DNA from: a virus
DNA length: 22,180 bases
Direction: 5' to 3' (one strand)
IMG/VR virus record: IMGVR_UViG_3300008110_005387
Location: 1-22,180 of that record
Under the pieces are notes generated by a model that saw only the letters and a program-made list of their open reading frames with translations, was not told the origin of the DNA and did not search any database. Made by a program: the position numbers and the translations under genes. Positions 2,172-18,561 of the stretch are shown piece by piece; the stretch's first letter is position 1; each line of letters begins with the position of its first letter.

Positions 2172-2891
2172 TTATTTAGGTTTCGTCAACTCATTATGCA
2201 CAATTTGGCTATATAAGAATTTGGCCCAGGCCGCATGTGCATCAGCACCAAAATGGTATGAGTCTGGGCGAACTGTTTTAAACCCATGTTGAATACACCA
2301 TTGGTAATAGGTGCCGTTTGAACAGTAAGGATCAATGTAGCAGTTGTTCCAGTCAAATTTTTTGTCTATGTGCAATTCGTCAAAATGACTGTAGGTATTG
2401 AAAAACAAATGTCGAATACCTTTGCGTGTCAGGTCCAAATGAAATTTGTAAATTGTATTATGTGACTGACGCATTTCTGTAGGCCAATCGATTTCGCTAA
2501 TGTATTTTGGGTATGCATCCTTGAGCCATGCAGGCCAATCCTCACCAACACCGCCGGCATTTACTTGCCAAACTATTCCAGTTGCTGGATCAGAAAATTC
2601 AGCTCGTTCCCAAGTGCTCCATCCAATTACAATATAATCTGGTTTTTGCTCACCGGTTATGTAATCCCATGTAGTTCGAATAACTCTTTGATTACTGCTA
2701 GCCGACTCGGCATCACAGTACAATACAGCATTCATCATATTGGCCAATTCACATCCGTAACTTACTCGCTCGTTGTCGGGGTGTGGTTGCCTGCCCAAGG
2801 CCCAGTACAGTGGATCGTCTTCGGCAAAGGCGTAGGAGTTTACTGCCTCTGCGCCAGCACTGTGACTGTCACCATTTACATAAAGAATCAC
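2172..2891 (-). CDS. SGNH/GDSL-like hydrolase, phage type
   Basis: The 239-aa product begins MILYVNGDSHSAG: the GDSH at 7-10 matches SGNH block I with Ser9 as candidate nucleophile. Near the C-terminus, DSYHFGADAHAAW matches block V, with D210 and H213 completing a Ser-Asp-His set. GWSTWERAEF in the middle lies where the Gly/Asn oxyanion block would be. Members of this superfamily are esterases, lipases or carbohydrate deacetylases. The substrate here is unknown, and a surface-glycan or virion role is plausible. The start is GTG at 2891-2889, in a GTGA overlap with the stop of the upstream gene. No signal peptide is seen, so it probably acts in the cytoplasm or on the virion. Confidence 0.72.
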   Translation of the reverse strand: MILYVNGDSHSAGAEAVNSYAFAEDDPLYWALGRQPHPDNERVSYGCELANMMNAVLYCDAESASSNQRVIRTTWDYITGEQKPDYIVIGWSTWERAEFSDPATGIVWQVNAGGVGEDWPAWLKDAYPKYISEIDWPTEMRQSHNTIYKFHLDLTRKGIRHLFFNTYSHFDELHIDKKFDWNNCYIDPYCSNGTYYQWCIQHGFKTVRPDSYHFGADAHAAWAKFLYSQIVHNELTKPK

Positions 2892-3307
2892 GATACTTCA
2901 CTACGTCCGTCGCCTAAGTCTTTGCGGTCAACAATGCGTGGTCTAGCTTCCATTGGTTGGTTACTTTCCCATTGTTCAAAGTTTTCTAAAACTACATTGC
3001 GGCACACATCCTGAAACCAACGATCAACAATGTCAACATCTGTTTTGCCTTTGTAACCGGCTTTTACTAATCGAGCTACAAAAATTTCATTCCAATCTAA
3101 TTCAAATGCACCATTGCCAATGTTGTCGGGGTCCACTTCAACAGATAATACATTGACCCAAGGCTCTCCGTTTTCAGTGGCCAATTCCTTTGGAGATTTT
3201 TTCTTTGATGTTTTTGGTTTAGTATTTTCTACTGGTGCCGACTGCTCTGGCATTGCAGGAGCGGCCACTTCTGGTTTTTTGCCAAACAGTTTATCTAATA
3301 GATTCAT
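2888..3307 (-). CDS. Conserved phage hypothetical protein with Lys/Pro linker, 139 aa
   Basis: The start MNLLDKLFGKK at 3307 forms a TAATG overlap with the queE stop. A start four codons upstream (3319) is possible but less likely. Residues 1-11 form an amphipathic N-terminal helix. Residues about 12-45 are a low-complexity Ala/Pro/Lys linker. A compact domain follows (WVNVLSVEVDP, FELDWNEIF, IVDRWFQDVC). The overall form matches a conserved protein I recall from marine T4-like phages, with no assigned function. Its tight coupling to queE and to the SGNH gene shows that it is co-translated with them. It is not part of any known deazaguanine pathway. Confidence 0.72.
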   Translation of the reverse strand: MNLLDKLFGKKPEVAAPAMPEQSAPVENTKPKTSKKKSPKELATENGEPWVNVLSVEVDPDNIGNGAFELDWNEIFVARLVKAGYKGKTDVDIVDRWFQDVCRNVVLENFEQWESNQPMEARPRIVDRKDLGDGRSEVS

Positions 3308-4179
3308 TAGGTACCCCACTCGTTCTTGAACAACGGCACTTGCAATCTGTCGCTGTAGCGTAAACCATGTCGCATAGCTAGGTCTGCCACTGTGCGATTG
3401 TTCAGCGCATACACACTCTCTACTCCGCCCACAGGCATCAGATAAACATGTCCTCGGAATCCTGCTTTGCGGAATTCAACAGTGGCAGTAACAGCATCAT
3501 CAAAATCATCTTCGGTGGCAATAACAAACTTCAAGTATGCTGTGCCAACTTGTTCGTACTCGCGAACAATCTCAGGACAGATAGCATCTTCCCACTTCTC
3601 GCCACTGCAAGGAAGTTTAGCACTTACTGAGAATGTAATTTCTCGAATTGGTCCACCATTGTGCCATGTTCTTGTTTGCCAGGTTTTCAAATACTCTTTA
3701 AATTCCGGAGTTAACTTTTGAGTACCATTGGTTTCAAATGTGATCTCTGTCAAGCCCGCCATCTTGGGATGATCCAACAAGTCTGGATAAGCACGTTGCC
3801 AACCCAGCAATGGCTCGCCGCCTGTGATAACCAAGTGTTCATCTTTCCATTCATTGTAAGGAATAATTTCCATAATGCGATCTACGATGGCATCTGTGGT
3901 CAGCATCGGACTAAGTTCTTTAAAGTCAGGATGCCAGCTAGCATAGCTGTCACAGCCTGTACTGACCAGTGGCAAGTCTTCGTATTTCTCAAATGCTTTA
4001 ATCATTGTATGCGTGGCCGCAATGTCTGTGGCCTCGTGACTTACCTGGCCACGTGGCATGCCAAAGCCCTCGCATTTAAAGTTACATCCAAATGTGCGTA
4101 GAAACACACTAGGCACACCCATGTAGCGGCCTTCTCCTTGAATACTGTAAAACAGTTCTGCTATTTTAATTTTGCTCAT
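3307..4179 (-). CDS. queE: QueE: 7-carboxy-7-deazaguanine synthase (radical SAM)
   Basis: QueE rearranges 6-carboxytetrahydropterin to 7-carboxy-7-deazaguanine (CDG). Family marks are clear: the N-terminal LFYSIQGEGRYMGVPSVFLR (the typical SIQGEG entry), the radical-SAM cluster start GCNFKC (C32, C36), the SAM-binding ITGGEPLL, and FETNG. The product is 290 aa, longer than the usual 210-250. The third cluster cysteine is not in the usual CxxC position: after C36 there is an insert of about 39 residues before TGCDSYASW (C76), giving C-x3-C-x39-C. It overlaps the MazG-like gene by 14 bases and its own downstream gene by TAATG. Together with FolE, QueD and the DpdA-like enzyme it implies 7-deazaguanine in phage DNA or host tRNA. 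Confidence 0.9.
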   Translation of the reverse strand: MSKIKIAELFYSIQGEGRYMGVPSVFLRTFGCNFKCEGFGMPRGQVSHEATDIAATHTMIKAFEKYEDLPLVSTGCDSYASWHPDFKELSPMLTTDAIVDRIMEIIPYNEWKDEHLVITGGEPLLGWQRAYPDLLDHPKMAGLTEITFETNGTQKLTPEFKEYLKTWQTRTWHNGGPIREITFSVSAKLPCSGEKWEDAICPEIVREYEQVGTAYLKFVIATEDDFDDAVTATVEFRKAGFRGHVYLMPVGGVESVYALNNRTVADLAMRHGLRYSDRLQVPLFKNEWGT

Positions 4180-4459
4180 TTAAGTCTTCTTTAAAAATAT
4201 TTGACCATTGTTTTAGTTTGGCAATTTTGTTGTCTGCGGCAATACTAATCTGTTCGCTACCTACTAGATTGAACTTGATGCACAAATCAATCATTGCCTG
4301 CAAGTCCCCTAGCTCTTCTGCCAGGTGGTCTCTATTTGTTTTAGGTTTGCCCGGCTTAAAGTTATCTAATCCAAAGCGATAACATTTAGAGATAGCCTGT
4401 GTTACTTCTGCACATTCCTCTTGTGTAATGAGCAAGATTTCATTTTCTTTTGAGTTCAT
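4166..4459 (-). CDS. mazG: MazG-like nucleotide pyrophosphohydrolase, 97 aa
   Basis: The ORF opens at a TTG (4489), but the ATG at 4459 with GGAA six bases upstream is the better start (MNSKENEI). The helical product carries the all-alpha NTP-pyrophosphohydrolase signature: QEECAEV (E14, E15, E18), followed after about 30 residues by AEELGDLQAMID (E48, E49, D52), the Mg-binding EExxD pair of MazG/dUTPase-like proteins. Such enzymes hydrolyse (d)NTPs to monophosphates. In marine phages MazG has been proposed to tune nucleotide pools or stress signals, though its natural substrate is debated. It overlaps the 5' end of queE, so the two are coupled. The substrate cannot be predicted here. Confidence 0.78.
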   Translation of the reverse strand: MNSKENEILLITQEECAEVTQAISKCYRFGLDNFKPGKPKTNRDHLAEELGDLQAMIDLCIKFNLVGSEQISIAADNKIAKLKQWSNIFKEDLNEQN

Positions 4460-4460
4460 A

Positions 4461-4655
4461 TTAGTTCCAATGACGTATTGTGTTTGCAATAATAAAAAAG
4501 CAGGTCACAACATGTATTATAACCCAGAACGTTTTAAAGAACAAGGCTATTCGGGCTTCTCGGCGTGTGAGAATTGGCACGTCGGGTCGGTCATCGTCGG
4601 TATTACCCATTAGATGACCGGTTGCTCTAGCCCAGATTTTTTCCAAGCTGTTCAT
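4461..4655 (-). CDS. Small single-pass membrane protein, 64 aa
   Basis: The likely start is MNSLEKIWARATG at 4655, which overlaps the end of the upstream gene by 29 bases. An upstream in-frame start at 4709 would lie deep inside that gene. The N-terminal half is soluble and charged, with an NTDDDRPDVP loop around residues 18-27. One strongly hydrophobic segment (about 37-59, LFFKTFWVIIHVVTCFFIIA) follows, then a short basic end. An inner-membrane location with one helix is likely. I recall similar short membrane proteins in marine T4-like phages, but the function is unknown. The Shine-Dalgarno is weak, so translation probably depends on coupling. Confidence 0.65.
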   Translation of the reverse strand: MNSLEKIWARATGHLMGNTDDDRPDVPILTRREARIALFFKTFWVIIHVVTCFFIIANTIRHWN

Positions 4656-4839
4656 GTTTCTGTTTTTCGGGTGTGTTAATGTGTGTAGGATTAGGCTTTG
4701 TATGAGCAATTCCGTATTGCTGATGCATCCATGCTACAAACTTCAACACTTCATCTTCTTGAAAATCGGTGTGAAGTCGTTGACTGTTGTAAACAGTGGC
4801 ACTGAGTACAACTTTATCTAACCATTCTTTGTCTGTCAT
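4627..4839 (-). CDS. Small hypothetical protein, 70 aa
   Basis: The start ATG at 4839-4837 forms an ATGA overlap with the queD stop, a strong sign of a real co-translated gene. The N-terminal 45 residues look helical (MTDKEWLDKVVLSA, DEVLKFVAWMHQQYG). The C-terminal 25 residues are polar, rich in Pro, Lys and Gln, and probably disordered. No motif or family is recognised. It sits between queD and the small membrane protein. Its role, if any, in the deazaguanine pathway is unsupported. Confidence 0.65.
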   Translation of the reverse strand: MTDKEWLDKVVLSATVYNSQRLHTDFQEDEVLKFVAWMHQQYGIAHTKPNPTHINTPEKQKHEQLGKNLG

Positions 4840-5333
4840 GCAAACAAATCCTCATTCCATTCACGGTGACCTTCACGGAAAGCCATGTTGCTCTGCGTTT
4901 CACGTACTTCTACGCGATAGCACCACAAACGTGCGGCTTCGCCTGGTCCCCACATCTCAGGAATGTATACGCCATTCACATACTTGTACAGCATGTCAGA
5001 CAGTCCCTCACAGCCTAGTTTTGGTAACACAACTATCTTGGCCATGTTACGTTCTTGTAACAGTTTAAATGTTTCCATTTCGGGATCATCTTGTGCTACA
5101 ATAAGTGTATGGTCAAATTGATCTTCTAGTGTTCGCTTTAGTTCTTTTAGGCCACCGTAGTCGGCAGCCCAGTTGCGGACATCTAGGTCATTGGTACCAA
5201 AGAAAAACTTCATGCTAAATGAATAGCCATGAATTAAATTACAATGACTGTCTGCCCTCCACTGTCTATAGGCGCAGGGAAATGCGTCATGGTACTCTTT
5301 GGTACTTGTATATTTGTAAACTACTGGTGTCAT
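4836..5333 (-). CDS. queD: QueD-like 6-carboxytetrahydropterin synthase, divergent
   Basis: QueD (6-pyruvoyltetrahydropterin-synthase fold) turns dihydroneopterin triphosphate into 6-carboxytetrahydropterin, the QueE substrate. Aligned by eye with E. coli QueD, the protein keeps the catalytic Cys in HCNLIHGYSF (C31), the DYGGLK strand (V/IDF.xLK equivalent), the Asp-His pair in FDHTLIV (D74, H75) and a Glu in VRETQ. The zinc site is unusual: AYRQ (Y22) replaces AHR, and HGY (Y37) replaces the second His of HGH, leaving H35 as the only standard ligand, with H30 a possible substitute. At 165 aa it is longer than the usual 120-140. The ATG has a strong GGAGAAA site lying beside a hairpin. Confidence 0.8.
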   Translation of the reverse strand: MTPVVYKYTSTKEYHDAFPCAYRQWRADSHCNLIHGYSFSMKFFFGTNDLDVRNWAADYGGLKELKRTLEDQFDHTLIVAQDDPEMETFKLLQERNMAKIVVLPKLGCEGLSDMLYKYVNGVYIPEMWGPGEAARLWCYRVEVRETQSNMAFREGHREWNEDLFA

Positions 5334-5342
5334 GCTGTTTCT

Positions 5343-5365: not shown

Positions 5366-5381
5366 CTGGCAGAGTTTGTAT

Positions 5382-5406: not shown

Positions 5407-5414
5407 TGGAATAA

Positions 5415-6426: not shown

Positions 6427-6438
6427 AATTATTTGTCC

Positions 6439-7611: not shown

Positions 7612-8358
7612 TTATCGCGGTGCAAACTCTTGTTGCAGTTTGATGTTATCAAAGAACTCTTTTTTTGTACCAGGGTCGTCTTTGAATGAACCTTTTAATA
7701 CAGTAGTCTGTGTCAAACTACTATGTGCCATGATGCCACGATTTTCACAGCATCCGTGTACAGCCTGGATGTATACTCCTAGGTCAGTTGCTCCAGTTGC
7801 TTTGGCAATTTCTCTGGCAATGTCGTTAGCAAGTTCTTCCTGTAATGTGCCACGACGAGCACACCACTGAGCAATACGAGTGTACTTGCTAAGACCAATG
7901 AGCTTTTGAGCGGCAATAATCCCGATATAAGCAACGCCACTGACAGGTTGGTGATGATGACTGCACATACTGCGAAGCTCACTACGCACCACAAGCATTC
8001 CTTCATATCGATCTTCGCTGTCGTTTGGAAATGCTGTTGCGTCTGGTGCTTGGTCATATCTGCCTGCCATTATTTCGTTAAAATACATTTTAGCAAGTCG
8101 TCTTGCTGTGCCTTTGCTGTTGGGATCTGTTTCACGATCGATCAATAACACATCCAGCATTTTTTCAAATGCAGGTGTTGCTTCGTCGATTAGTTTCTCA
8201 ATATCACCTTCGTGCAAGTAATCACTAATGTTGTCGCCTGCCCAGAAACGTTTGCCTTCACGTTTCATTTTAAAGCGAATATGATCACCTAGGTATGCTT
8301 CTTTGTATCCGCCATCTCCTGCCATGGCGTCTAATCCTGTTTCTTTTTTATCTGTCAT
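7612..8358 (-). CDS. folE: FolE: GTP cyclohydrolase I
   Basis: FolE opens GTP to dihydroneopterin triphosphate, the first step of both folate and 7-deazaguanine synthesis. The 248-aa product has the type I signature: RSMCSHHHQPVSGVAYIGI (zinc Cys plus the His pair and the start of the core), KLIGLSKYTRI, the RRGTLQEELANDIA stretch, and the C-terminal zinc/catalytic YIQAVHGCCENRGI. An N-terminal extension of about 40 residues precedes the core, and the C-terminal tail after the core runs on for some 35 residues. In this context its product most likely feeds QueD. It follows a sigma70-like promoter and has a strong GGAGAAA ribosome-binding site, so it heads a transcription unit. Confidence 0.93.
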   Translation of the reverse strand: MTDKKETGLDAMAGDGGYKEAYLGDHIRFKMKREGKRFWAGDNISDYLHEGDIEKLIDEATPAFEKMLDVLLIDRETDPNSKGTARRLAKMYFNEIMAGRYDQAPDATAFPNDSEDRYEGMLVVRSELRSMCSHHHQPVSGVAYIGIIAAQKLIGLSKYTRIAQWCARRGTLQEELANDIAREIAKATGATDLGVYIQAVHGCCENRGIMAHSSLTQTTVLKGSFKDDPGTKKEFFDNIKLQQEFAPR

Positions 8359-8395: not shown

Positions 8396-8424
8396 ATTGT
8401 AATGTATTTAGATTGTTGTGTCAA
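8396..8424 (-). promoter_or_regulatory. Sigma70-like promoter for folE
   Basis: The minus strand shows a perfect TTGACA (8424-8419), exactly 17 bases of spacer, and TACAAT (8401-8396), one change from the TATAAT consensus. Transcription would start near 8389, about 30 bases before the folE ATG. The -35 box overlaps the stop codon of the aminotransferase gene. The spacer contains TCTAAATAC, a 9-mer that recurs elsewhere in the window. Confidence 0.65.
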
Positions 8425-9011
8425 GGCACAATAGTTATTTTTCTTAAATCTGGGTAATGAACTTTAGCCGGAATTGGTTTTGATTCTTTAACACCTTCGA
8501 GCAAGGCCAATCCTTGCTGTGCTTCTTCGATAGTTGGTTTATAATGAAACCCAACTTTAAAAACGGTTTGATCCTGCCACGGACTTACTGTTAAATCTCT
8601 ACCATCATAGCGTTGGTGCAATATGGTGTCGTAGGCAACCACATCATCAAGAAGAATAGCACCTCCGCGACCAATTGCCAACGGCTTTCCGTGACCAAAA
8701 CTTAAACATTGCATCTGACCTTCTCTGTACATGTTTTTTTCTAATCGACGGGCACTGTCCCAAACATCAGTTCCATAAAATCGATACTCTCCGGTCCAAG
8801 TTTCTGGAACCAATTCGTAGTCGATGTTTAATTTATGCATGGTCATTGGAACGCTCAAATAGGTATACGCAGTAAATTTAGTATGTTTAACTTTACAATA
8901 TCGTAAACACATTTCAATGGCGTGTGTACAACAATCTGTCATAATTGCATACGGTGCCCCAGTAAATTTGGCTAACTCTTTTTCAAAGGCTAAAATTTTA
9001 TCAAAGGTCAT
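8421..9011 (-). CDS. Short DegT/DnrJ/EryC1-type PLP aminotransferase, 196 aa
   Basis: DegT-family enzymes transfer an amino group to keto-sugars to make amino sugars for glycans. Family signposts appear in order: GAPYAIMTDCCTHAIEMCL (the cofactor-phosphate loop region), TYLSVPMTM, DVWDSARRL (D85, the PLP-ring Asp), and SFGHGKPLAIGRGGAIL, where K109 is the candidate PLP lysine. The usual length is 360-400 aa. Here most of the C-terminal domain is missing, yet the gene ends cleanly and is not visibly frameshifted. It overlaps the HldD-like gene by 11 bases. It may be a reduced but working enzyme, one chain of a complex, or a non-catalytic relic. Family call good, activity uncertain. Confidence 0.72.
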   Translation of the reverse strand: MTFDKILAFEKELAKFTGAPYAIMTDCCTHAIEMCLRYCKVKHTKFTAYTYLSVPMTMHKLNIDYELVPETWTGEYRFYGTDVWDSARRLEKNMYREGQMQCLSFGHGKPLAIGRGGAILLDDVVAYDTILHQRYDGRDLTVSPWQDQTVFKVGFHYKPTIEEAQQGLALLEGVKESKPIPAKVHYPDLRKITIVP

Positions 9012-9822
9012 AATTTAGTTTCATCCAATCTTCAACACTAGTCCATTCTTTTGGACCAACTGCGAGATTATATTGAGTAAGGTCTGCTTGTGTATGTTCT
9101 TGGTACGTAGAGGTCAAGATCGGGGGCATAGGAATGTATTCAATTTCGGCTGATTCTTGTTCGGCTACCAGTCTGGCGATACGTTCGAAACTTCTGGTAC
9201 TACCTGTTCCGACATTAAAAATTCCGCTGACATTGGTGTTTAAAAATCTCAAATGCGAATCAACTACGTCTTCGACACAGACAAAATCTCTACAGTAGTT
9301 TTCGCTGTTATAGAATAATTTAATCTTGCCAGTTTTTCTTGCCTGATTTCGAAACTGTGTTACAGGACTGGCCTGAGATCCTTTGTGCATCTCGCCACGT
9401 CCGTACACGTTAAAATATCTAAAACCTTGTACAACGTTACCTCCGCGGTGTTGTTCCACATGTCTGTCAAACAGATATTTGGACCAAGCATAAGGACTGC
9501 GAGGATCTGGATTGCAAGATTCTTTAAAATTTTGATTCAGTCCGTACACACTAGCCGAACTGGAATATTGAAAGTTAACGCCAAAAGTTTTACATTCATT
9601 AAAAAGTTCAATGCTGTATTCAAGATTTTGCTGTAGTACAAGATCAATGTTTCGTTCGGTGGTTGAACTGTTGGCTCCAATATGTATTACCCAATCATAT
9701 TCCATAACACCACGATGCCGATTGTGCCAATCAAAACTGTCGACGCTGTGTCCTGTATTTTTTAGTGCCTGTATCACATGCGGAGCAATAAATCCTTGAT
9801 CCCCAGTTACTAAGATTTTCAT
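9001..9822 (-). CDS. hldD: HldD-like ADP-heptose 6-epimerase (SDR family)
   Basis: HldD converts ADP-D-glycero- to ADP-L-glycero-D-manno-heptose. The 273-aa product has a Rossmann start (ILVTGDQGFIAPHV, a variant of GGAGFIG), SSTTE, YSSSASVYG, and Y111-xxx-K115 in PYAWSKYLFDR. It closely follows HldD in FRYFNVYGRGEMHKGSQAS, LFYNSENYCRDFVCVEDV, GIFNVGTG and EYIPMPPILTSTYQEHTQADLTQ. It is some 35 residues shorter than the E. coli enzyme, mostly around the NAD domain. It overlaps the kinase gene by ATGA and the aminotransferase gene by 11 bases. With the kinase, phosphatase and nucleotidyltransferase genes it forms an ADP-heptose cluster. Another nucleotide-sugar epimerase is possible but less likely. 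Confidence 0.82.
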   Translation of the reverse strand: MKILVTGDQGFIAPHVIQALKNTGHSVDSFDWHNRHRGVMEYDWVIHIGANSSTTERNIDLVLQQNLEYSIELFNECKTFGVNFQYSSSASVYGLNQNFKESCNPDPRSPYAWSKYLFDRHVEQHRGGNVVQGFRYFNVYGRGEMHKGSQASPVTQFRNQARKTGKIKLFYNSENYCRDFVCVEDVVDSHLRFLNTNVSGIFNVGTGSTRSFERIARLVAEQESAEIEYIPMPPILTSTYQEHTQADLTQYNLAVGPKEWTSVEDWMKLNYDL

Positions 9823-10941: not shown

Positions 10942-11420
10942 AACTTTTTAAGTTCATTTATTGTATTATTAAGATCCCCGCGATGTTGGATAGCAATACC
11001 CCCGGCACTACGCCATTCTTCGCAGTTACTGGTCCGATCATCAATTAATACATCTCCGGACTGGCAATGTACATGTTTGTCTTTACTAAAAGGTCCAAAC
11101 ATAACTGGAATGTCTGGATAGTGTGTGGCGGCCCAATGCACCTTGTCATAGAATGCCCAATGCACATCATTGCCTTTTGGTACCGCAGTCAAGAACATTA
11201 GATTCCAGCCATGTTGACTGCACAGTTGTCGACAATAATCAACCAATTGATCTGCTTCAACTGTTTTATCCAAGTCTCTATACAGTCTATGATTGTCTTT
11301 GAGACGTACCCAATCTTCATGGGGCCACTTTTCTTCATTGCTCTTTTTTCTTAATACACGGACTGCATACGATTTAAAATCTGCAATTACATCGTCCATG
11401 TCTAAATAAATTGTTTTCAT
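10938..11420 (-). CDS. HAD-family phosphatase (nucleotidase-like), possible GmhB role
   Basis: The 160-aa product begins MKTIYLDMDDVIADF, the HAD nucleophile motif DxD (D7, D9) of 5'(3')-deoxyribonucleotidase-like phosphatases. FLTAVPKG supplies the Ser/Thr motif II, and DVLIDDRTSNCEEWRSAGG supplies the acidic motif IV. By family it is closest to cytosolic deoxynucleotidases. By position, directly upstream of the heptose nucleotidyltransferase and kinase genes (ATGA overlaps on both sides), it could act as the heptose 1,7-bisphosphate 7-phosphatase, a job done in bacteria by the HAD enzyme GmhB. That role is inference only. The HAD assignment is firm. Confidence 0.8.
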   Translation of the reverse strand: MKTIYLDMDDVIADFKSYAVRVLRKKSNEEKWPHEDWVRLKDNHRLYRDLDKTVEADQLVDYCRQLCSQHGWNLMFLTAVPKGNDVHWAFYDKVHWAATHYPDIPVMFGPFSKDKHVHCQSGDVLIDDRTSNCEEWRSAGGIAIQHRGDLNNTINELKKL

Positions 11421-11776
11421 TTTTGACTATCGCCTTTGCCTATACGATAATTATCTTCTACACTGTCTGGTGTGCTAACTTCAATGATGGTACCTGCTTC
11501 AACACATACTACCTGATGAGGAAGTAAAGGTTTATTATGCCATACTTCTCCAGCACTCAATTGTGCTTCGTGCATAGTAGCATCTACAGTATCAATGTAG
11601 AATACGCTAAACTTGCCAGACAGCACATACCAAGTTTCTTCTTTTTCTTTATGAAAATGCATGCTGAATTTTGCACCAGCGTTGAAGTGCATGAGCTTGC
11701 CGCAGTACCGATCATTGGTTGCCCATATCTCTTCTGATCCCCACCCCTTGGGTACAATGCCTGTTAATCTTGTCAT
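11417..11776 (-). CDS. Cupin, mannose-6-phosphate isomerase type II-like
   Basis: The start MTRLTGIVPKGWG at 11776 shares ATGA with the galE stop, and an upstream start at 11791 is less likely. The 119-aa product has the cupin pattern FSMHFHKEKEETWYVLSGKF (two His, Glu, then the strand) and LLPHQVVCVEAGTIIEVS with the later His, all metal-site positions of small RmlC/PMI-like cupins. The N-terminal KGWGSEEIW resembles the entry to the phosphomannose isomerase type II cupin domain. Alone, without a nucleotidyltransferase domain, it could be a sugar isomerase/epimerase or a sugar-binding regulator. Location in the sugar cluster supports a carbohydrate substrate. Confidence 0.75.
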   Translation of the reverse strand: MTRLTGIVPKGWGSEEIWATNDRYCGKLMHFNAGAKFSMHFHKEKEETWYVLSGKFSVFYIDTVDATMHEAQLSAGEVWHNKPLLPHQVVCVEAGTIIEVSTPDSVEDNYRIGKGDSQK

Positions 11777-12747
11777 TTTCTTGTATACCATTTATAAGCT
11801 GTGTCTATGATTGTTTCGATGTCGCTGTGTTCAGGAACCCAGCCCAATACTTCATTGGCCAATGTAGCGTCAGCAACTAGTGTAGCAGGATCTCCTGGTC
11901 TTGCTTCACCAAAGAACACAGTACTCATTCCGTACGTGTCTTTAACATAGTCAAGTATCTGTCGATTGCTAGTTCCGTGATTGGTACCCAAGTTAAAAAT
12001 GTGCGCCCCGGGTTCTTGATCAACAAAGTCGACAGCACAAAGATGTGCGTGTGCTAGATCCCATACATGAATATAATCACGCACACATGTACCATCTGGT
12101 GTTGCAAAGTCTTCGCCGTTGATAGTAAATGCACGTCGATTGATACTGGCTTCAAGTACACGAGCAACAATGTGTGTGGCCTCTGGTTCTTGCCCTAAGT
12201 CAAAATTGTGAGGTTCTGCTCCGGCTGCATTAAAGAATCTAAAGCACACACTGTTAAGATTGTATGCTGTGTAGTAGTCGTTTAGAATACGTTCTACTGC
12301 TAACTTGGTATTGCCATATGGACTAATAGGATCCAATCTGTGACACTCCACCACAGGTACATGTTCTGGCTCTCCGTACACACTGGCACTGCTACTAAAC
12401 AATACCATTGGAGGTTTGTGTAATTGTTTGATACTGTTTAACATTGTGATAGTTTTTACCACATTGTTGTTGTAGTATTCTGCAGGATCAGTCATACTAG
12501 GACCAACTAAACTAGTGCCAGCACAGTGTACAATAATGTCCGGTGCCAGTTCACGAATAGTAGCAAGACTGTCGAGGCTGGCAAAGTCTCCAATGTAGTA
12601 TCCATCCATGCCGTTCAGTGCATGATCACGTTGTACACGATCGATTACGTATACTCGGTTACCTTTTTGTTTGAATGCACGAGCTACATGACTACCGATA
12701 TACCCGCATCCGCCAGTAACAACAACAGTTTTATTCTTTGTTGCCAT
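11773..12747 (-). CDS. galE: GalE-like UDP-glucose/GlcNAc 4-epimerase
   Basis: GalE interconverts UDP-glucose and UDP-galactose using tightly bound NAD. The 324-aa product is full length and has the NAD loop TGGCGYIGSH (residues 11-20), HCAGTSLVGPS, LFSSSASVYG (Ser118-120), PYGNTK with Y144 and K148 as the catalytic pair, FRFFNAAGAEP, CVRDYIHVWDLAHAH and the C-terminal FFGEARPGDPATLVAD. These are GalE-specific rather than general SDR marks. The ATG has an AAGGATT site. It leads the string cupin, HAD, HldE parts, HldD and aminotransferase, so it probably provides galactosyl or related donors for phage or host-surface glycans. It is the best-preserved sugar gene in the window. Confidence 0.9.
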   Translation of the reverse strand: MATKNKTVVVTGGCGYIGSHVARAFKQKGNRVYVIDRVQRDHALNGMDGYYIGDFASLDSLATIRELAPDIIVHCAGTSLVGPSMTDPAEYYNNNVVKTITMLNSIKQLHKPPMVLFSSSASVYGEPEHVPVVECHRLDPISPYGNTKLAVERILNDYYTAYNLNSVCFRFFNAAGAEPHNFDLGQEPEATHIVARVLEASINRRAFTINGEDFATPDGTCVRDYIHVWDLAHAHLCAVDFVDQEPGAHIFNLGTNHGTSNRQILDYVKDTYGMSTVFFGEARPGDPATLVADATLANEVLGWVPEHSDIETIIDTAYKWYTRK

Positions 12748-13746: not shown

Positions 13747-13748
13747 GT

Positions 13749-13937: not shown

Positions 13938-13946
13938 AATATTTCC

Positions 13947-15122
13947 TTAAAATTTTGATTCATGTGTGTGCTTGCGGTAGTCAACGCTCATTCGTAACCA
14001 CTGCTCTCCCTTACCTTCTAAAATATCAACGATACGATCTACTGTACCATCGGTCCAGTCACTGAGTTTGCCCATATGTTCACTAGGACGCTCAAGCAGT
14101 GGCTCTAACTTGTCCATGGCATCTTCTATGCTCCAGGGTACATACAACCTGGTATGGTCGTTGGCAAATGTCTCTGGAAAACTGCGATATGCTGGATATA
14201 ATACATTACAACCTAATGCATCTGCCTCTGATACAGTGTTAGAAACCCAATCTTGTAAAGCACAATTAAACACAACACGACTGTCGTTGACAATGTTATA
14301 GTAATCGTTTTTCTCCAAGTCCTCATGGATAGTAAGCAATCCACGTGCCTGCATGTCGCGTGTACGAGACATATAACTTTCGTTATTGCTTTTTAACTTG
14401 CCGCCTGAACATACTGCAAACTCAACATAGCTCTTGGGATGGCGTTGGTGCCAGGCTTCAATTAGATCCATGTAGAAGTCTGGTTGCTTCTCTTGATCCC
14501 AACGTGCTGAGAATACAACACGATGCTTACGCTCACTAAATGGACGAATGGTGCCTACACGGCCTTGTACCTCATCCTTGCCAAATGCAAGTCCTGAAAT
14601 ATTATAGAGAGGGGCTTCCCAGCCTGCAATCTTCATGTGCATGACCATTTCTTCGTTAGTGGCCAATACGCCGGTAACAAAGCTGTCTACCATTTTTTCA
14701 TACAAACCCATCCATTTGCTCATGCCCCAAACATGAACAAAATCATCTGGATCGATTGATTGAGCAAGACAACGGACAAAAATCCTAGGACAATGAGCAG
14801 GATCGATTTGATTAAGAATGTAAGGTAAGCTCTCGATACCGGGTTGAAACATGTCTTCAAAATAGATAACATCCTCATTGCTACACTCACCTGCTTTCAT
14901 CATTCGAACAAGATTCATAAGTTGGCTCATGCCAAAATATGTGCGTCCATGTGCGTCTAATACTTGTCCAGTTACAATGGCTTGATCATTACTCAGTGTC
15001 TCGCCGGGCACAATAACATAGTCAATGCCACGACGTTTAAAAACACGTTCGTTCCACTCTTGTAGTTGTAAAGTATAACGAGCCTTATATGGCTCGAGTC
15101 CCATATAATATAGTTTTCTCAT
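13947..15122 (-). CDS. GT-B glycosyltransferase (family 1/4-like), 391 aa
   Basis: The product has a two-domain GT-B layout. The N-terminal half (about 1-200) carries short Rossmann strands such as GIDYVIVPGE, VIYFEDMFQPG and IFVRCLAQSIDP. The C-terminal half starts HRVVFSARWDQEKQPDFYMDLIEAW (split: VVFSARWDQEKQPDF, then MDLIEAW), continues FAVCSGG, and ends in the donor-binding region VFNCALQDWVSNTVSEADALGCNVLYP, where the Glu of SEADALG matches the conserved E near the nucleotide-sugar. It should move a sugar from a nucleotide donor, perhaps one made by GalE or the HldD pathway. The acceptor (DNA base, virion protein or host glycan) is unknown. Phages also use GT-B enzymes to glucosylate DNA. 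Confidence 0.75.
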   Translation of the reverse strand: MRKLYYMGLEPYKARYTLQLQEWNERVFKRRGIDYVIVPGETLSNDQAIVTGQVLDAHGRTYFGMSQLMNLVRMMKAGECSNEDVIYFEDMFQPGIESLPYILNQIDPAHCPRIFVRCLAQSIDPDDFVHVWGMSKWMGLYEKMVDSFVTGVLATNEEMVMHMKIAGWEAPLYNISGLAFGKDEVQGRVGTIRPFSERKHRVVFSARWDQEKQPDFYMDLIEAWHQRHPKSYVEFAVCSGGKLKSNNESYMSRTRDMQARGLLTIHEDLEKNDYYNIVNDSRVVFNCALQDWVSNTVSEADALGCNVLYPAYRSFPETFANDHTRLYVPWSIEDAMDKLEPLLERPSEHMGKLSDWTDGTVDRIVDILEGKGEQWLRMSVDYRKHTHESKF

Positions 15123-15130
15123 ATAGATCC

Positions 15131-15409
15131 TTACCTTGAGTTAAACCGCTGGTGTCTTCCAAACTGTGGTTTAGAAAACTGTGGTTTAGCAAAATGTGGT
15201 TTAGGATCACGGCCCCAGTTATCTCTAGGATACTTTCCATTTTGTACACGATGGAATTCACCCCATGGAGTACGATCGTTATATAGATGTGCTTCATTAA
15301 ACACATATCCATATTTTACACAAAATTCACTGTAAGCTTCAAGGTCTTCAAAGATTTTGTTAACCTCGGGTTTCATAGTAAGATATTTTTTAATCCAGGC
15401 TTGTGCCAT
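15131..15409 (-). CDS. Hypothetical protein with C-terminal KPQF repeats, 92 aa
   Basis: The N-terminal 70 residues (MAQAWIKKYLTMKPEVNKIF, then EDLEAYSEFCVKYGYVFNE) look helical and resemble a conserved marine T4-like phage protein with no function. The last 22 residues hold three copies of a KPxF unit (KPHFA, KPQFS, KPQFG), encoded by a 15-base tandem repeat, and are probably disordered. The gene follows a good AAGGAAAA site and ends eight bases before the glycosyltransferase start. Confidence 0.7.
   Translation of the reverse strand: MAQAWIKKYLTMKPEVNKIFEDLEAYSEFCVKYGYVFNEAHLYNDRTPWGEFHRVQNGKYPRDNWGRDPKPHFAKPQFSKPQFGRHQRFNSR
15161..15205 (-). repeat. Three tandem 15-base repeats encoding KPQF units
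   Basis: Units 15161-15175, 15176-15190 and 15191-15205 share the plus-strand core AAACTGTGGTTTAG with one internal change in the third unit. The period is in frame (15 = 5 codons), so copy-number change would lengthen or shorten the tail of the 92-aa protein without a frameshift. Confidence 0.85.
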
Positions 15410-15420
15410 TTTTATTTTCC

Positions 15421-15861
15421 TTAAACATTGATAAGTTGAGGACGGTGAGTTTCATATTTAATAAGTGCGCCGTTTTCACCATCTTCGGCCACTTCGATCC
15501 AGACACTGCGTCCAGGATACTTGTTGGCGATCTGCAAGTACAGATCGTCTGAGATCATTTCACAACTCTTGAAGTTGAGTTCCAGGGTTCCTCCGGCGTA
15601 GAGCTTCTCCAACCAACGTTTGAACTGGATGAATTCAATATCGCGATCATTATGAAAAACATCGATCCAAACTCTGAAATGGAAAATATGCCTATGAGGT
15701 ACCCCAAGAAAAGACACATCATATTCATCACCGGTCGCCAGTGCTGGGTCATCTGCGGCAGCAGGATACTTGTGGATTCCTTCTTTGCGGAAGGTGACCC
15801 AGATTTTTCTATCTGCACGTTGTTTAATTCTTTCAATTGCATCTCGCTGTTCTTGATTCAT
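15421..15861 (-). CDS. Conserved phage hypothetical protein, 146 aa
   Basis: The product contains the run WVTFRKEGIHKYPAAADDP and HRHIFHFRVWIDVFHNDRD, with an even spread of alternating strands, and ends with VWIEVAEDGENGALIKY. It resembles a conserved marine T4-like phage protein of unknown function. Several His and Asp residues (GVPHRHIFHF, FHNDRD) could bind metal, but no known motif is complete. The start shares ATGA with the 72-aa gene upstream. No membrane segment is seen. Confidence 0.75.
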   Translation of the reverse strand: MNQEQRDAIERIKQRADRKIWVTFRKEGIHKYPAAADDPALATGDEYDVSFLGVPHRHIFHFRVWIDVFHNDRDIEFIQFKRWLEKLYAGGTLELNFKSCEMISDDLYLQIANKYPGRSVWIEVAEDGENGALIKYETHRPQLINV

Positions 15862-16076
15862 AGTACTTTTCCCAATCCCAAATAAATTAATTGCTCTAGC
15901 TCAGTTTGATAGTCCCGACCAAGTCTACGCTTTTCATAGATGGCAGTAAGAATATCTTTGCCGTCGCCGTAGTCTGTGGTACCAGCACCGCGACTCGCTA
16001 ATTCTTCTACCAGATCATCTGTGTCAAAGTCTGACAAGCTGACATCAACTTCTACTTCTGTGTAAACTGTAGGCAT
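15858..16076 (-). CDS. Small acidic hypothetical protein, 72 aa
   Basis: The product starts MPTVYTEVEVDVSLSDFDTDDLVEELASRG and ends in a helix with YQTELEQLIYLGLGKVL. It is acidic, with a strand-rich start and helical rest. The start shares TAATG with the upstream stop and the stop shares ATGA with the next start. A similar protein occurs in marine T4-like phages. No function is known. Confidence 0.72.
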   Translation of the reverse strand: MPTVYTEVEVDVSLSDFDTDDLVEELASRGAGTTDYGDGKDILTAIYEKRRLGRDYQTELEQLIYLGLGKVL

Positions 16077-16585
16077 TATATAACCTCGTCTTGAGTGTAT
16101 TTAGACCAATCAGTAAAAACTGATTCACGTTTCATTAGACTATAAAGACTATGGCACCATACACCGGGGTTAGTTGCCTTAAAGTCTTTGTCATCTAGTT
16201 TAATTGTAGCATTGTAACCTAGTTGTTGTATATAGGGCAATTTAACCGAAATCATTGGAATAAAATTATGCTGTTCGGTTAATCCACTTTCTAGTAGTCC
16301 CTCAACACATTTTACATCAATATCTAACGTACACAAATAATCTCGTTTGAGAAAGTAGTCAATCATGTTTTCCCATTGTTTCCAACCTTCGGCATCGTTA
16401 TACGCCAAGTTGGGAAAACTTTGATTGGCTCCAAAGTATATGTGTTGATGTCCATGAAGTTTTGCGGCAATATCCTCAACCGAATGAACTCCAACTACAA
16501 ACAAAGTTTTTAATCCATATGCTGGAGTATGTTCTACTTCAGTTCCGGTAAAAAAGTTAACTGTTTCGTGTCCTGGTCGATCCAT
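16076..16585 (-). CDS. Conserved phage hypothetical protein, 169 aa
   Basis: The product carries the runs HETVNFFTGTEVEHTPAYG, TLFVVGVHSVEDI, HQHIYFGANQSF, LDIDVKCVEGLLE and KLPYIQQLGYNATIKLDDKDF. The alternating strand/helix order and the conserved Asp, Glu and His hint at a TIM-like or Rossmann-like alpha/beta enzyme, but no catalytic signature can be fixed. I recall homologues in marine T4-like phages without function. A GAGG site lies just before its ATG, and it is followed by a TAATG overlap. It sits in the same gene run as the DpdA-like enzyme. Confidence 0.75.
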   Translation of the reverse strand: MDRPGHETVNFFTGTEVEHTPAYGLKTLFVVGVHSVEDIAAKLHGHQHIYFGANQSFPNLAYNDAEGWKQWENMIDYFLKRDYLCTLDIDVKCVEGLLESGLTEQHNFIPMISVKLPYIQQLGYNATIKLDDKDFKATNPGVWCHSLYSLMKRESVFTDWSKYTQDEVI

Positions 16586-16587
16586 GA

Positions 16588-17003: not shown

Positions 17004-17010
17004 TTATTCC

Positions 17011-18561
17011 TCACAAGATGTTTTCAAGACTGTCAAGTTTTGATTCGTCAAAATCTTCTTGATCTAATTCTTCCCCGATGCTCTCGACTGTGTCAAACAG
17101 AGCGTTAAACATTGTATTGGCATTGCGAGTTTTTTTACCTTTAAACCCTCTAGTACCAATAATGTCCATCCAATAACGATCGTAATGCTCGATTATGGCT
17201 TCAGATTCATTCCGATCAGTTGTGGCAAATATAGCATCTACTATATCTGCAAATTTAGCGTGGTCACCATTTTCATTCCACATCATGTAAGGCCAACATG
17301 TGCCAGTATCAAACTCTCTATTGGCACGTTGTACAGCTTCTATGTGTGTCCAGACATTATGTCCCATGAGCAAAGCATAACTAAAGCTGTCCCATGAAGT
17401 CTTGCCTTCTTTGCCAATCTTGTTAAGGTCGCCTGGCTTGTAGATGCAGATGTCTTTCATGGTCAGTAACTGACTAATTGGGCTTTCGTCAAAATGTTTC
17501 CAGTATCCATCTGCCACAGTAGTTGTGCCATAAGGTCTTGTATCTGTGCTGTATTTTTTGTCATCGGCGCTGGGACTCATACGATAACACCATTTGTCGT
17601 TGTGCGGCAAATCAATGTGGTGATATACCTGTCCGTTAGCAGTGGCAAGGAACGGACTAGCACAGTCAAACGAAATAGTAAAAGACGGATTAACATATTT
17701 TCTAATTGCCCGCTGAATCACAGTGAGTAACACAGCCCATTCTAACTTTGATGTTCCCAAGAAGTGCATCCAATCATGTTTGCCCTCTTGTAACAAGTTG
17801 TCGTGACGTAGTGCTACCAGGCGCTTTAATACTAGATGTACGTCACACATGTTTTGTCCACCCATTGACCAACCATCAAAGTGAGTGTCTGGGTATTTAA
17901 CAGGGTCGCAGTATTCTTTCATGGTTTGATACCATTCCTCGGCTGAAGTATGATTATCGCCTTGTAGAACGTTTAGGAACTTGGCACCACCATTCTTAAC
18001 ACCCTTGCGGTGCTTCATGAAGTATTCGTTGTTGAACTTGGTAGCGTCAACTGCTTCTTGCAGTGTGGTAATTTGGCAGGCCTTTGATGCCTTCTTGTCG
18101 TGAATAACCCAGGTAGGAATATCCAAGATCATGCCATAGTCGGCAACATTGTCCAACCAGTTCAAGATTAGACTTCGTTTCTTTTGAGCCTTGGCACAAC
18201 CTGAGTTGGCTTTCCAATCGCCTTCCCACAAGCCCTTGGCAATCTGGAATCCACCCGAGTCACCTAACAGGAATGTACCAGGTTCACGATTACGTACCAT
18301 GTCCTCACTCCAGTCCTGCTTGTTCAAGTCCAAATTAGCATGACCGCCCGAATACAAACTCCACTTATAAGGGAACAGTGCTTTCTGACTGTTAAGCCAA
18401 TTCATCTGTTCCATGTCAGTTAGGCCTTGCGGCAAACGTGCAGGGTCTACATAATTCTCATTACGTTGTTTGCCCACAAAGGTGGCGTAGAAGCCACTGA
18501 TAGCTGGCAAGAATACAGCGTAATCTTTTTGGTTAGCGGTTAAATTATTTTCCGGAGTCAT
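17011..18561 (-). CDS. dpdA: DpdA-like DNA guanine transglycosylase (TGT superfamily), 516 aa
   Basis: TGT enzymes swap guanine for a 7-deazaguanine in nucleic acid, and DpdA proteins are the DNA-acting branch. TGT landmarks appear in order: GTFLLGDSGGFQIAKG (the DSGGFQ loop, D101, proposed general acid/base), FLNVLQGD (199-202, the VQG guanine-binding region), FDGWSMGGQN (230-237, the GG loop), MHFLGTSKLEW (267-275), and ISFDCASPF (D299, the candidate nucleophile). After D299 I see no CxCxxC...H zinc cluster of tRNA TGTs, and an extra C-terminal half (about 310-516) ends in a polar, acidic tail. These features favour DpdA over tRNA TGT. Its partners FolE, QueD and QueE are in the same window. 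It overlaps the upstream gene by 17 bases. Confidence 0.82.
   Translation of the reverse strand: MTPENNLTANQKDYAVFLPAISGFYATFVGKQRNENYVDPARLPQGLTDMEQMNWLNSQKALFPYKWSLYSGGHANLDLNKQDWSEDMVRNREPGTFLLGDSGGFQIAKGLWEGDWKANSGCAKAQKKRSLILNWLDNVADYGMILDIPTWVIHDKKASKACQITTLQEAVDATKFNNEYFMKHRKGVKNGGAKFLNVLQGDNHTSAEEWYQTMKEYCDPVKYPDTHFDGWSMGGQNMCDVHLVLKRLVALRHDNLLQEGKHDWMHFLGTSKLEWAVLLTVIQRAIRKYVNPSFTISFDCASPFLATANGQVYHHIDLPHNDKWCYRMSPSADDKKYSTDTRPYGTTTVADGYWKHFDESPISQLLTMKDICIYKPGDLNKIGKEGKTSWDSFSYALLMGHNVWTHIEAVQRANREFDTGTCWPYMMWNENGDHAKFADIVDAIFATTDRNESEAIIEHYDRYWMDIIGTRGFKGKKTRNANTMFNALFDTVESIGEELDQEDFDESKLDSLENIL

Follow-up and report, generated by a model that had tools for sequence, protein, structure and literature searches.

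The window, the whole stretch of DNA analysed here, is a 22,180-base IMG/VR fragment, which, in the explanation that we favour, comes from a large relative of the PA5oct and Paride phages. It contains the following features:

3307..4179, minus strand: QueE-like radical SAM enzyme, CDG synthase (phrog_2076, QueE-like, E 2.6e-49)
4166..4489, minus strand: MazG-like pyrophosphohydrolase, between the QueE and QueD genes (PF03819, E 5.5e-5; phrog_4856, E 8.2e-23)
4836..5333, minus strand: QueD-like 6-carboxytetrahydropterin synthase (PF01242, E 2.4e-14, over the cut-off; phrog_2389, E 6.1e-35)
7612..8358, minus strand: FolE, GTP cyclohydrolase I (Pfam PF01227, E 4.4e-38, over the cut-off; phrog_2197, E 5.5e-43)
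8421..9011, minus strand: short DegT/DnrJ-type aminotransferase, candidate amino-sugar donor enzyme (PF01041, E 4.5e-12; in 24 of the 28 relatives with enough flank)
9001..9822, minus strand: second nucleotide-sugar epimerase (PF01370, E 2.8e-30; in 20 of 28 relatives, by a search that does not separate the first epimerase)
11773..12747, minus strand: GalE-like nucleotide-sugar epimerase, candidate sugar-donor enzyme (PF01370, E 1.6e-47; in 27 of the 28 relatives with enough flank)
13947..15122, minus strand: GT391, GT4-type glycosyltransferase of GT-B fold, candidate for acting on a modified base (fold and conserved linkage)
15131..15409, minus strand: u92, small conserved ORF between u146 and the glycosyltransferase (in 28 of the 28 relatives with enough flank)
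15421..15861, minus strand: u146, divergent QueD paralogue, candidate CDG-converting enzyme (phrog_17812, E 2.8e-36)
16076..16585, minus strand: u169, conserved protein (in 28 of the 28 relatives with enough flank)
17011..18561, minus strand: DpdA-like transglycosylase of 516 aa, a distant sister family of DpdA2 (TGT fold, DpdA2 profile match, invariant residues)

FolE, QueD and QueE together produce 7-carboxy-7-deazaguanine (CDG), a step that is established for these families. The three enzymes had been named in the original prediction, and the Pfam and PHROG matches bear these calls out; QueE is recognised by its PHROG, its match to the Pfam Radical_SAM model being 24.2 bits and under the cut-off of 29.5. 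Each of the three was found in all 14 records carrying the DpdA-like family, which comprise 11 of the longer IMG/VR contigs, Paride, Phosso and 2.275.O. The MazG-like ORF reaches 23.8 bits with PF03819 (cut-off 22) and was found in 5 of the 28 relatives, the flanks of which often stop short of its position; a role of its product in the pathway is uncertain.

As predicted, the window yielded no match to QueC. QueC was equally missing from the whole records of Paride, Phosso, BUCT-ZZ01, ACP17, RHph_I1_18, Ahp1, Bakedbeans, MA9V-3 and phiST. Among the records bearing the DpdA-like family, 2.275.O carries its own QueC, and over-cut-off matches were obtained in two of the other 13 (G001 and G008), in both cases just past QueE. 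The match in G001 is an NAD synthase (166 bits), while that in G008 was graded by the cut-off only.

The 516-aa ORF gave no match at 0.01 in Pfam, PHROGs, PADLOC or NCBIfam. Its AlphaFold2 model (pLDDT 79, pTM 0.83) shows the TGT fold: the best 15 rows of a Foldseek search against the PDB are all tRNA-guanine transglycosylases (E 5.4e-8 to 1.3e-3), and TGTs occur throughout among the 50 matches listed by VIA (Z 18.3–19.1; best matches Z 19.1, with 301 residues at rmsd 5.2 and 302 at rmsd 4.5). The viral structures matched by fold include DpdA2 of phage nt-1. D101-S-G-G, D147, G201 (QG), G235 and D299 (FDC) do not vary across the 24 family members compared, of which the window protein is one, so that both the assignment to the TGT superfamily and the landmarks named for it hold. 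A weak match between profiles (probability 17.7) places D299 opposite the FDC aspartate of a canonical TGT. The roles of the catalytic aspartate pair and of the base-pocket motifs among these residues are presumably those of the Z. mobilis TGT.

The family profile matched DpdA2 with a probability of 96.9 (E 1.5e-10) and canonical bacterial TGT with 17.7, which agrees with the predicted DpdA-like rather than tRNA-type character, although the contest is uneven because the TGT side consists of only two near-identical sequences. Phage 9g has a proven DpdA, to which the profile showed no similarity (probability 0.5), nor did it to those of Bipper (0.6) and phiSM (0.4). A PSI-BLAST search started from 9g DpdA also misses DpdA2, itself a proven DpdA in nt-1, according to an excerpt of PMC6884629. 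The DpdA2 model phrog_10773 did not match the window protein at 0.01, and at the same threshold the DpdA2 profile had no match in G001, G002, Paride, Phosso or 2.275.O. Judged by sequence, the protein lies outside the DpdA2 subfamily model and is related to DpdA2 at the profile-profile level only.

The zinc site of tRNA TGT has the form CxCxxC. This motif was not seen by eye in the profile of the DpdA-like family, the single conserved cysteine of which (C372) is not invariant in the 24 members. Of 17 family members, none matched PF01702 (tRNA TGT) with the threshold relaxed to E 10, while the canonical TGTs carried separately by two Magnetospirillum genomes score 529–530 bits. Both PF01702 and CxCxxC speak against a tRNA-guanine transglycosylase identity. 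The pathway could nevertheless serve tRNA, in a queuosine-like manner, or a free pterin glycoside instead of DNA, since the TGT fold is common to tRNA enzymes and the fold of GT391 resembles, among others, that of tetrahydrobiopterin glucosyltransferases (Z 19.3–19.5). However, the closeness of the profile to DpdA2, the separate canonical TGTs in Magnetospirillum, the DNA polymerase encoded a few genes from dpdA both in Paride and in the lineage of the window, and the finding of no tRNA gene in the window all argue against such a role, which we regard as highly improbable. Judging by its fold, its residues and the genes that accompany it, the 516-aa enzyme probably swaps a modified base into DNA.

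A second candidate enzyme of the pathway is u146. In hhalign comparisons it matched QueD (probability 94.7, E 5.8e-8) and neither FolE (0.6) nor QueE (0.4), while PF01242 gave no match even at E 1 and no QueD structure was found by sequence profile. H30 and an HxH motif (H56, H58) are invariant in the family, as is C100 in 12 members. In E. coli QueD, the catalytic cysteine precedes the HxH zinc motif; unlike there, the u146 alignment has no conserved cysteine ahead of H30 and HxH. By sequence and distribution, u146 is a candidate for the enzyme standing where QueC is missing. DpdL is a CDG decarboxylase, and u146 may be this published protein. A function is hereby suggested for PHROG 17812, which has had none assigned.

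u146 is present in 13 of 20 records tested. QueC was found in six of the seven u146-free records and in none of 94 u146 loci from IMG/VR and GTDB (within about 8 kb). Among the 13 records with u146, one over-cut-off QueC match is NadE, and D479 alone has a match that is not NadE, which is partial. A host QueC could convert the phage CDG to preQ0, with preQ0 or a derivative being inserted. Borrowing is feasible, as all four GTDB genomes checked that have related genes gave a QueC match, full-length in three, and 2.275.O, with the same DpdA family, possesses a QueC of its own. Against this, none of the records tested was found to combine u146 with a whole QueC, and we consider host conversion quite improbable.

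The model of GT391 (pLDDT 76.8) matched MshA in Foldseek with E 3.1e-11, and fold matching gave Z 21.8 with rmsd 3.8 over 330; Pfam glycosyltransferase models match below the cut-off. The complex of T4 alpha-glucosyltransferase with DNA (1ya6) was found at E 2.6e-7 and rank 45, amid many other glycosyltransferases. GT4 enzymes glycosylate many things, and GT391 is, from its fold and gene linkage, a candidate DNA glycosyltransferase. u92 and u169 match no Pfam family at E 1; a u169 homologue lies directly before DpdA2 in ACP17 (32.5% identity, E 6e-12), and others occur in 11 PA5oct-type records.

Both u146 and GT391 lie near dpdA in 28 of the 28 relatives with enough flank, and both recur in the unrelated phages ACP17, X1 and BUCT-ZZ01, where their neighbour is DpdA2 and not the window-type DpdA; ACP17 and BUCT-ZZ01, but not X1, supplied rows to the DpdA2 profile. 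In ACP17, all seven genes form one cluster in the order QueD-FolE-u169-DpdA2-GT-u146-QueE. The original prediction had described the pathway genes as spread, not forming one operon, and mixed with glycan and small genes. The dispersal is correct for the window, with the refinement that several intervening genes are conserved in relatives; the notion of mere bystanders found no support, and the intervening genes look like part of the system.

In the 18 phage records looked at, out of 20, homologues of GT391 sit in deazaguanine loci. A profile of the glycosyltransferase matched eight of 20 records, namely seven with u146 and either DpdA2 or window-type DpdA (six lineages) and Ep032; since six of the eight matching records supplied profile rows, the information in this test lies in the 12 records that gave no match. 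In all 11 PA5oct-type records, among which one phage was entered twice, the glycosyltransferase match begins 15 bases past the DpdA match. The glycosyltransferase was found in 78 of the 94 u146 loci, on the strand of u146 in all 78 and at a median gap of 389 bases. Sugar-donor genes are not universal, with galE in 39 and DegT in 28 of these 78 loci. Conversely, u146 occurs without the glycosyltransferase in six of its 13 records (phiST, Ahp1, D479, MA9V-3, RHph_I1_18 and Bakedbeans), so that the u146 branch would not depend on the sugar; a small TGT-like protein is encoded close to u146 in all of these except Bakedbeans. Five Magnetospirillum-type loci are ordered GT-u146-DpdA-QueD, preceded in the SpK locus by a CoiA-like nuclease.

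With modest confidence, we propose that the phage puts into its DNA a 7-deazaguanine whose synthesis bypasses QueC, and that a glycosyltransferase then glycosylates this base. FolE, QueD and QueE would make CDG, and u146 would act on it in place of QueC, diverting it from preQ0, with decarboxylation as the simplest reaction. The DpdA-like enzyme would swap the modified base into DNA, and the linked GT4-type enzyme would attach a sugar, supplied in the window lineage by the epimerase and the DegT aminotransferase, as gene linkage suggests. Attachment could be as an ester on the carboxylate, if kept, or as a C-glycoside on C7, if lost; a base decarboxylated by u146 poses a problem in having no obvious O or N handle at C7. 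Three options had been offered for the QueC gap. An undescribed finishing enzyme fits best, with u146 and the glycosyltransferase as candidates inside the interval; insertion of CDG itself or use of a host QueC is less explanatory, as neither accounts for u146 and the glycosyltransferase travelling with the pathway or for u146 and a whole QueC not occurring together in the records tested.

Among known systems, that of Vibrio phage nt-1 likewise couples genes for 7-deazaguanine synthesis to a DpdA of TGT fold (Hutinet 2019, PMC6884629, in excerpt). Its DpdA2 is the nearest known DpdA family to the window protein by profile and fold; unlike the window, nt-1 has QueC and lacks u146 and the glycosyltransferase, and its phrog_10773 misses the window protein. 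Mycobacterium phage Bipper has FolE, QueD, QueE and DpdA and lacks only QueC, CDG being named as a possible base (same excerpt), but its DpdA is of the phrog_887 type, without u146 or glycosyltransferase. Cellulophaga phage phiST shares FolE, QueD, QueE, u146 and the missing QueC; it differs in having no glycosyltransferase and, instead of a large DpdA, a 259-aa protein that is TGT-like by motif order only. Bipper and phiST are consistent with a phage that inserts only CDG or decarboxylated 7-deazaguanine, u146 being DpdL and the glycosyltransferase and sugar genes serving a virion or host-surface glycan. dCDG, dDG and DpdL themselves were reportedly described by Cui in 2023. However, the glycosyltransferase adjoins DpdA or u146 in six phage lineages (window-type, PA5oct-type, Phosso, ACP17, X1 and BUCT-ZZ01) and in Magnetospirillum, lies inside the cluster in ACP17, and as a surface-glycan gene would have no reason for deazaguanine company. 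We therefore rate this explanation as rather unlikely and retain glycosylation of the base.

Close in content to the window are the QueC-less loci of Acidovorax phage ACP17, Xanthomonas phage X1 and Synechococcus phage BUCT-ZZ01 with FolE, QueE, u146, glycosyltransferase and DpdA, which differ in using DpdA2 and, in BUCT-ZZ01, in a second GT-like protein; these are annotated records, and the portions of the literature consulted gave no description of them as a system. The bacterial Dpd island is said to couple modification with restriction (attributed to Thiaville, 2016). By gene content, the Magnetospirillum aberrantis locus likewise pairs DpdA with a nuclease-like protein, but carries u146 and the glycosyltransferase and has no QueC in the locus. 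T4 alpha-glucosyltransferase, which resembles GT391 in its GT-B fold (1ya6), acts on hydroxymethylcytosine, as opposed to the linked 7-deazaguanine. In T4, glucose is added post-replicatively (excerpt of PMC13216743).

No report of a sugar-bearing 7-deazaguanine mark in DNA was found. To our knowledge, the known 7-deazaguanine marks carry small groups. Tentatively, and with slightly more doubt than belief, we suggest a widespread hypermodification of this kind, in which a QueC-less branch of u146 and a dedicated glycosyltransferase has been combined with two different DpdA families, across six or more phage lineages, with a modification-plus-nuclease island in Magnetospirillum; the sugar would differ between lineages, as the donor genes are swapped. 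If true, it would unite the two major ways in which phages shield their DNA, with deazapurines and with glycosylated bases, and should stop a broader range of nucleases. It would also suggest a function for phrog_17812, for a bacterial locus and for the DpdA-like family, which is as yet without a model and occurs in at least 599 IMG/VR stretches. The prediction is directly testable because the cultured phages BUCT-ZZ01, Phosso, ACP17, X1, PA5oct and Paride carry the same genes. Paride kills dormant Pseudomonas aeruginosa, according to an excerpt of PMC10761892.

The genes discussed here all lie on the minus strand of the window, whose 22,180 bases hold no tRNA gene. Those referred to by position are:

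4836-5333, minus strand: QueD
9819-11791, minus strand: sugar kinase, HAD, cupin and cytidylyltransferase genes
13947-15122, minus strand: GT391, a GT4-type glycosyltransferase (GT)
15131-15409, minus strand: u92
15421-15861, minus strand: u146, a QueD paralogue
16076-16585, minus strand: u169
17011-18561, minus strand: DpdA-like transglycosylase of 516 aa

FolE, QueD and QueE were securely assigned by Pfam or PHROGs. The original prediction of a dispersed pathway of FolE, QueD, QueE and a DpdA-like protein without QueC is correct, and the system is bigger than first described. It is most likely a QueC-less branch of 7-deazaguanine modification, equipped with a QueD paralogue and a glycosyltransferase of its own, which predicts a sugar-bearing deazaguanine in DNA.

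The 516-aa protein had no match at 0.01 in Pfam, PHROGs, PADLOC or NCBIfam, and none in the PDB when searched by sequence. A direct sequence search with A1, a profile of its family (window-type DpdA), found no DpdA relatives in phages nt-1, Bipper, 9g and CP220, so that profile-profile and fold searches were needed. An AlphaFold2 model (pLDDT 79, pTM 0.83, 26-row alignment) retrieved tRNA-guanine transglycosylases (TGT) in the first 15 rows of a PDB structure search (Z up to 19.1). Among viral models, rank four went to a protein from phage Motura labelled 'tRNA guanine transglycosylase' and rank seven to DpdA2 of Vibrio phage nt-1. A 17-member family profile aligned to six DpdA2 proteins with a probability of 95.2 (E 2.6e-8), with DSGG, D147, QG, LG and ISFD in register; the conserved residues are presumably the general base and nucleophile known from TGT structures. 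With 24 members the probability rose to 96.9 for DpdA2 (E 1.5e-10) versus 17.7 for canonical TGTs, represented by two near-identical Magnetospirillum sequences, a gap that is overstated because six diverse sequences stand on the DpdA2 side and two alike on the TGT side. A1 gave 12.2 to the same two TGTs, below 1 to the DpdA proteins of 9g, Bipper and phiSM and to six unrelated control proteins, and at most 2.2 to the 109 CP220 ORFs that are 180 aa or longer. For six DpdA2 proteins taken singly its values ranged from 10.9 to 93.1, and the less diverse alignment A2 performed worse (1.9 to 83.7). The relationship was judged by profile comparison, the families being too distant to align well for a tree that also spans tRNA TGT and the DpdA subfamilies. 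By these profiles, the protein is a distant sister of DpdA2 that falls outside both the DpdA2 and the tRNA TGT model, which bears out its assignment as something other than a tRNA-type TGT.

In phage records, tblastn found the DpdA-like family 13 times: in 11 records of PA5oct-type Pseudomonas phages (33%) and one each from Sinorhizobium phage Phosso and Vibrio phage 2.275.O. In IMG/VR it occurs in at least 599 stretches, some on contigs of 317 kb and 344 kb. FolE, QueE and QueD were each present in 14/14 records carrying the family. IMG/VR scans with query proteins from Vibrio phage 2.275.O and from Paride gave no matches, and a Phosso query gave two loci. The plasmid collection yielded one distant match to a Magnetospirillum DpdA, from Azospirillum. 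In 2.275.O, a QueC-bearing relative, the window-type DpdA is followed by a putative amidoligase-like protein (L002:13723-14835; 21.9 bits, cut-off 22). A QueE-like radical SAM model matched eight stretches in the whole record of the large IMG/VR contig G001 and ten in that of G002, QueE included; further radical SAM proteins appear to be numerous in these phages.

Gene company was examined in 80 fetched relatives with the DpdA-like protein, one of which (L004) is identical across it; 28 of them have 9.5 kb or more of sequence downstream of this protein. In this set, tblastn (1e-4) recovered u169, u146, u92, GT391 and FolE in 28/28 each, the nucleotide-sugar epimerase galE324 in 27/28, the short aminotransferase DegT in 24/28 and QueD in 23/28. 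Of the genes at 9819-11791, those for the sugar kinase, the HAD protein and the cupin were each found in one of the 28 relatives and that for the cytidylyltransferase in two, which marks them as changeable cargo; such swapped sugar genes perhaps set which sugar is used. The conserved protein u169, considered as a missing enzyme, matched no Pfam family.

The claimed absence of QueC was upheld in the whole records of two relatives, the 287-kb Paride and the circular 469-kb Phosso, neither of which gave a match at 0.01. A real QueC was found in one of the 14 records carrying the DpdA-like family, that of 2.275.O. Matches of PF06508 over the cut-off in G001 and G008 cover positions 3-61 only and lie just beyond QueE. 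A hidden, divergent QueC beside QueE in G001 was rejected, the protein being an NAD synthase (166 bits versus 24.1 for QueC):

L086:1432-2184: NAD synthase gene of G001, just beyond QueE, at first mistaken for QueC

The G008 match is taken to be of the same kind, judged by place and score. Matches below the cut-off (13-15 bits) occur in G004, G005 and G009, of which the last adjoins QueE as in G001.

u146 was present in 13 of 20 phage records, which were picked partly for having u146 or QueC. Besides the NAD synthase match of G001, D479 was the only one of the 13 with QueC over the cut-off, a match of 32.8 bits that covers just a C-terminal part (positions 133-201); the match in X1 (16.2 bits) is below it. 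Six of the seven u146-free records have QueC (nt-1, 9g, phiSM, Ep032, 2.275.O and CP220, the last called by our own QueC model, which includes the CP220 sequence), and Bipper has neither. Whole records were searched with Pfam QueC and loci with our own model, trained on seven sequences; its reach is little tested, as the single outside control, PhiXhv-12, scores like its relative Ep032, one of the seven.

u146 corresponds to phrog_17812, a PHROG of unknown function. Its 12-member profile aligned to QueD with a probability of 94.7 (E 5.8e-8), compared to 0.6 for FolE and 0.4 for QueE. No match was obtained with Pfam PTPS, and the profile gave a chance-level match only in the PDB. The invariant residues are H30, H56, H58, H70, E76, S99, C100, E101 and E126. 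QueD relies on zinc histidines and a catalytic cysteine; from its residues, u146 seems to keep the former and to have lost the latter. In the window QueD itself, the supposed zinc site reads HGY, as in the QueD-like proteins of ACP17, BUCT-ZZ01, phiST, phiSM and RHph_I1_18; the 9g and Bipper proteins have HGH there.

The model of GT391 (pLDDT 76.8, pTM 0.78) has a GT-B fold. It matched MshA (E 3.1e-11), sucrose-phosphate synthase (Z 21.8), BshA (21.5), SenB (21.0) and tetrahydrobiopterin glucosyltransferases (Z 19.3-19.5); T4 alpha-glucosyltransferase with DNA ranked 45th (E 2.6e-7). The modelled fold is that of a glycosyltransferase; we infer the acceptor from gene company, the fold being silent on it. 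The tRNA glycosyltransferases QTMAN and QTGAL were considered as a possible precedent.

In the phage collection, GT391 had no matches other than Synechococcus phage BUCT-ZZ01 (65%) and two records of Acidovorax phage ACP17 (23%). The ACP17 GT as query retrieved 20 phage records, covering all matches of two other GT queries. The GT lies in a 7-deazaguanine locus in all 18 records examined (all but PhiXhv-15 and PhiXhv-16), ten of the 11 PA5oct-type records among them being judged from coordinates alone. In 11/11 PA5oct-type records the GT match starts 15 bases past the DpdA match. Of the 20 records tested for u146, a GT profile matched eight (G001, G002, BUCT-ZZ01, ACP17, X1, Paride and Phosso, with a weaker match in Ep032), six of which had contributed rows to it; the seven other than Ep032 fall into six phage lineages. 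Gene orders are:

ACP17: QueD, small ORF, FolE, u169, DpdA2, GT, u146, QueE
BUCT-ZZ01: QueE, two ORFs, QueD, FolE, second GT-like ORF, DpdA2, u146, GT
X1: FolE, three ORFs, GT, DpdA2, u146, QueE
Phosso: DNA polymerase, ORF, clamp, ORF, u146, GT, ORF, FolE, three ORFs, QueE; DpdA elsewhere

The second glycosyltransferase-like protein of BUCT-ZZ01 (L248:9010-10350, 447 aa), between FolE and DpdA2, scores below the Pfam cut-off.

A wider scan with a u146 alignment led by ACP17 covered the best 80 IMG/VR loci (at least 596 relatives among at least 599 stretches) and 14 GTDB loci. With our own models, a GT was found in 67/80 and 11/14 of them, respectively, a count (78/94) that is not a random sample because the viral loci were ranked by likeness to the ACP17 u146, itself GT-adjacent. 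Proteins of DpdA type, counting window-type, DpdA2 and small TGT-like ones together, were likewise found in 67/80 and 11/14. QueC over 40 bits was found in 0/80 and 0/14 within about 8 kb on each side, using the seven-sequence model. Of the viral loci, 42 are flanked by 5 kb or more on each side; these contain a GT in 40 cases, a DpdA-type protein in 38 and QueC in none. GT and u146 are co-stranded in 78/78 loci, with a median gap of 389 bases (maximum 3,305). At 50% identity the 78 GTs group into ten clusters. Five of these consist of one locus each, and in three of the five (L301, L308 and L349) the GT breaks off at the locus edge, so that the lineages number fewer than ten.

Phages phiST, Ahp1, D479, MA9V-3 and RHph_I1_18 carry u146 and no GT of this kind, each with a small TGT-like protein nearby; in Bakedbeans, which also has u146 and lacks such a GT, no small TGT-like protein was found in the locus. 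Four such proteins (259-290 aa) lie beside u146 in phages without GT:

L247:9789-10568: small TGT-like protein
L252:6417-7289: small TGT-like protein
L254:6686-7543: small TGT-like protein
L255:6785-7579: small TGT-like protein

Their TGT-likeness comes from motif order judged by eye, and they match by profile weakly: the probability to A1 was 22.3 with one unrelated row included. The profile gave 24.8 to the 24-member DpdA-like set and 1.6 to canonical TGT. The model matched RHph_I1_18 (169 bits) and CP220 (75 bits), the latter protein being presumably DpdA3.

Bacterial copies with the order GT, u146, DpdA, QueD occur in four Magnetospirillum contigs, including that of Magnetospirillum aberrantis SpK, and in one Rhodospirillaceae MAG:

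L346:5176-10905: GT-u146-DpdA-QueD locus of M. aberrantis SpK; also in L345, L347, L348 and L349

On the 424-kb SpK contig, a CoiA-like nuclease precedes the GT (PF06054, 27.7 bits, over the cut-off), and an ORF resembling a tyrosine recombinase by eye lies about 3 kb past QueD. Canonical TGT and QueC are encoded by genes of their own in SpK and in another Magnetospirillum genome. From its gene content, the SpK locus resembles an island for DNA modification that may include a restriction partner. The plasmid collection gave no match to the ACP17 u146. In Streptomyces sp. NEAU-Y11 (L350, L351), u146 stands with QueD and FolE in a locus that lacks both a DpdA-type protein and a GT, and the genome has no PF01702 match at 0.01; this is possibly another use of the base.

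The enzymes named are present and travel together. FolE, QueD and QueE lead to 7-carboxy-7-deazaguanine (CDG), as established for these families (excerpts of PMC6884629 and PMC13329287). u146 would divert CDG away from the QueC route, DpdA would insert the product into DNA and the GT would add a sugar to the inserted base. If that base were bare 7-deazaguanine, its nucleophilic C7 would be the sole handle and a C-glycosyltransferase would be needed; if CDG were retained, the carboxylate could serve as the sugar handle. The DNA nucleosides dCDG and dDG and a predicted decarboxylase, DpdL, were reportedly described by Cui in 2023. Since phiST carries u146 and is reportedly a phage with dDG, u146 may be DpdL. 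Bipper, missing QueC alone, could carry CDG according to an excerpt of Hutinet 2019 (PMC6884629). Among the matches listed in a literature search that covered few subscription papers, none dealt with glycosylated deazaguanine in DNA, judged by the title and the start of the abstract. A jumbo-phage review that mentions PA5oct describes deazaguanine as predicted for some of these phages; the Paride paper contains neither 'deazaguanine' nor 'queuosine', and none of its passages among those listed discusses modified Paride DNA.

In Erwinia phage Ep032 (L256:3747-6981) and Xanthomonas phage PhiXhv-12 (L258), a Gat-QueC-like fusion and a PIG-L deacetylase are followed by a more distant GT, a row that is possibly a second, QueC-based route to sugar-bearing deazaguanine.
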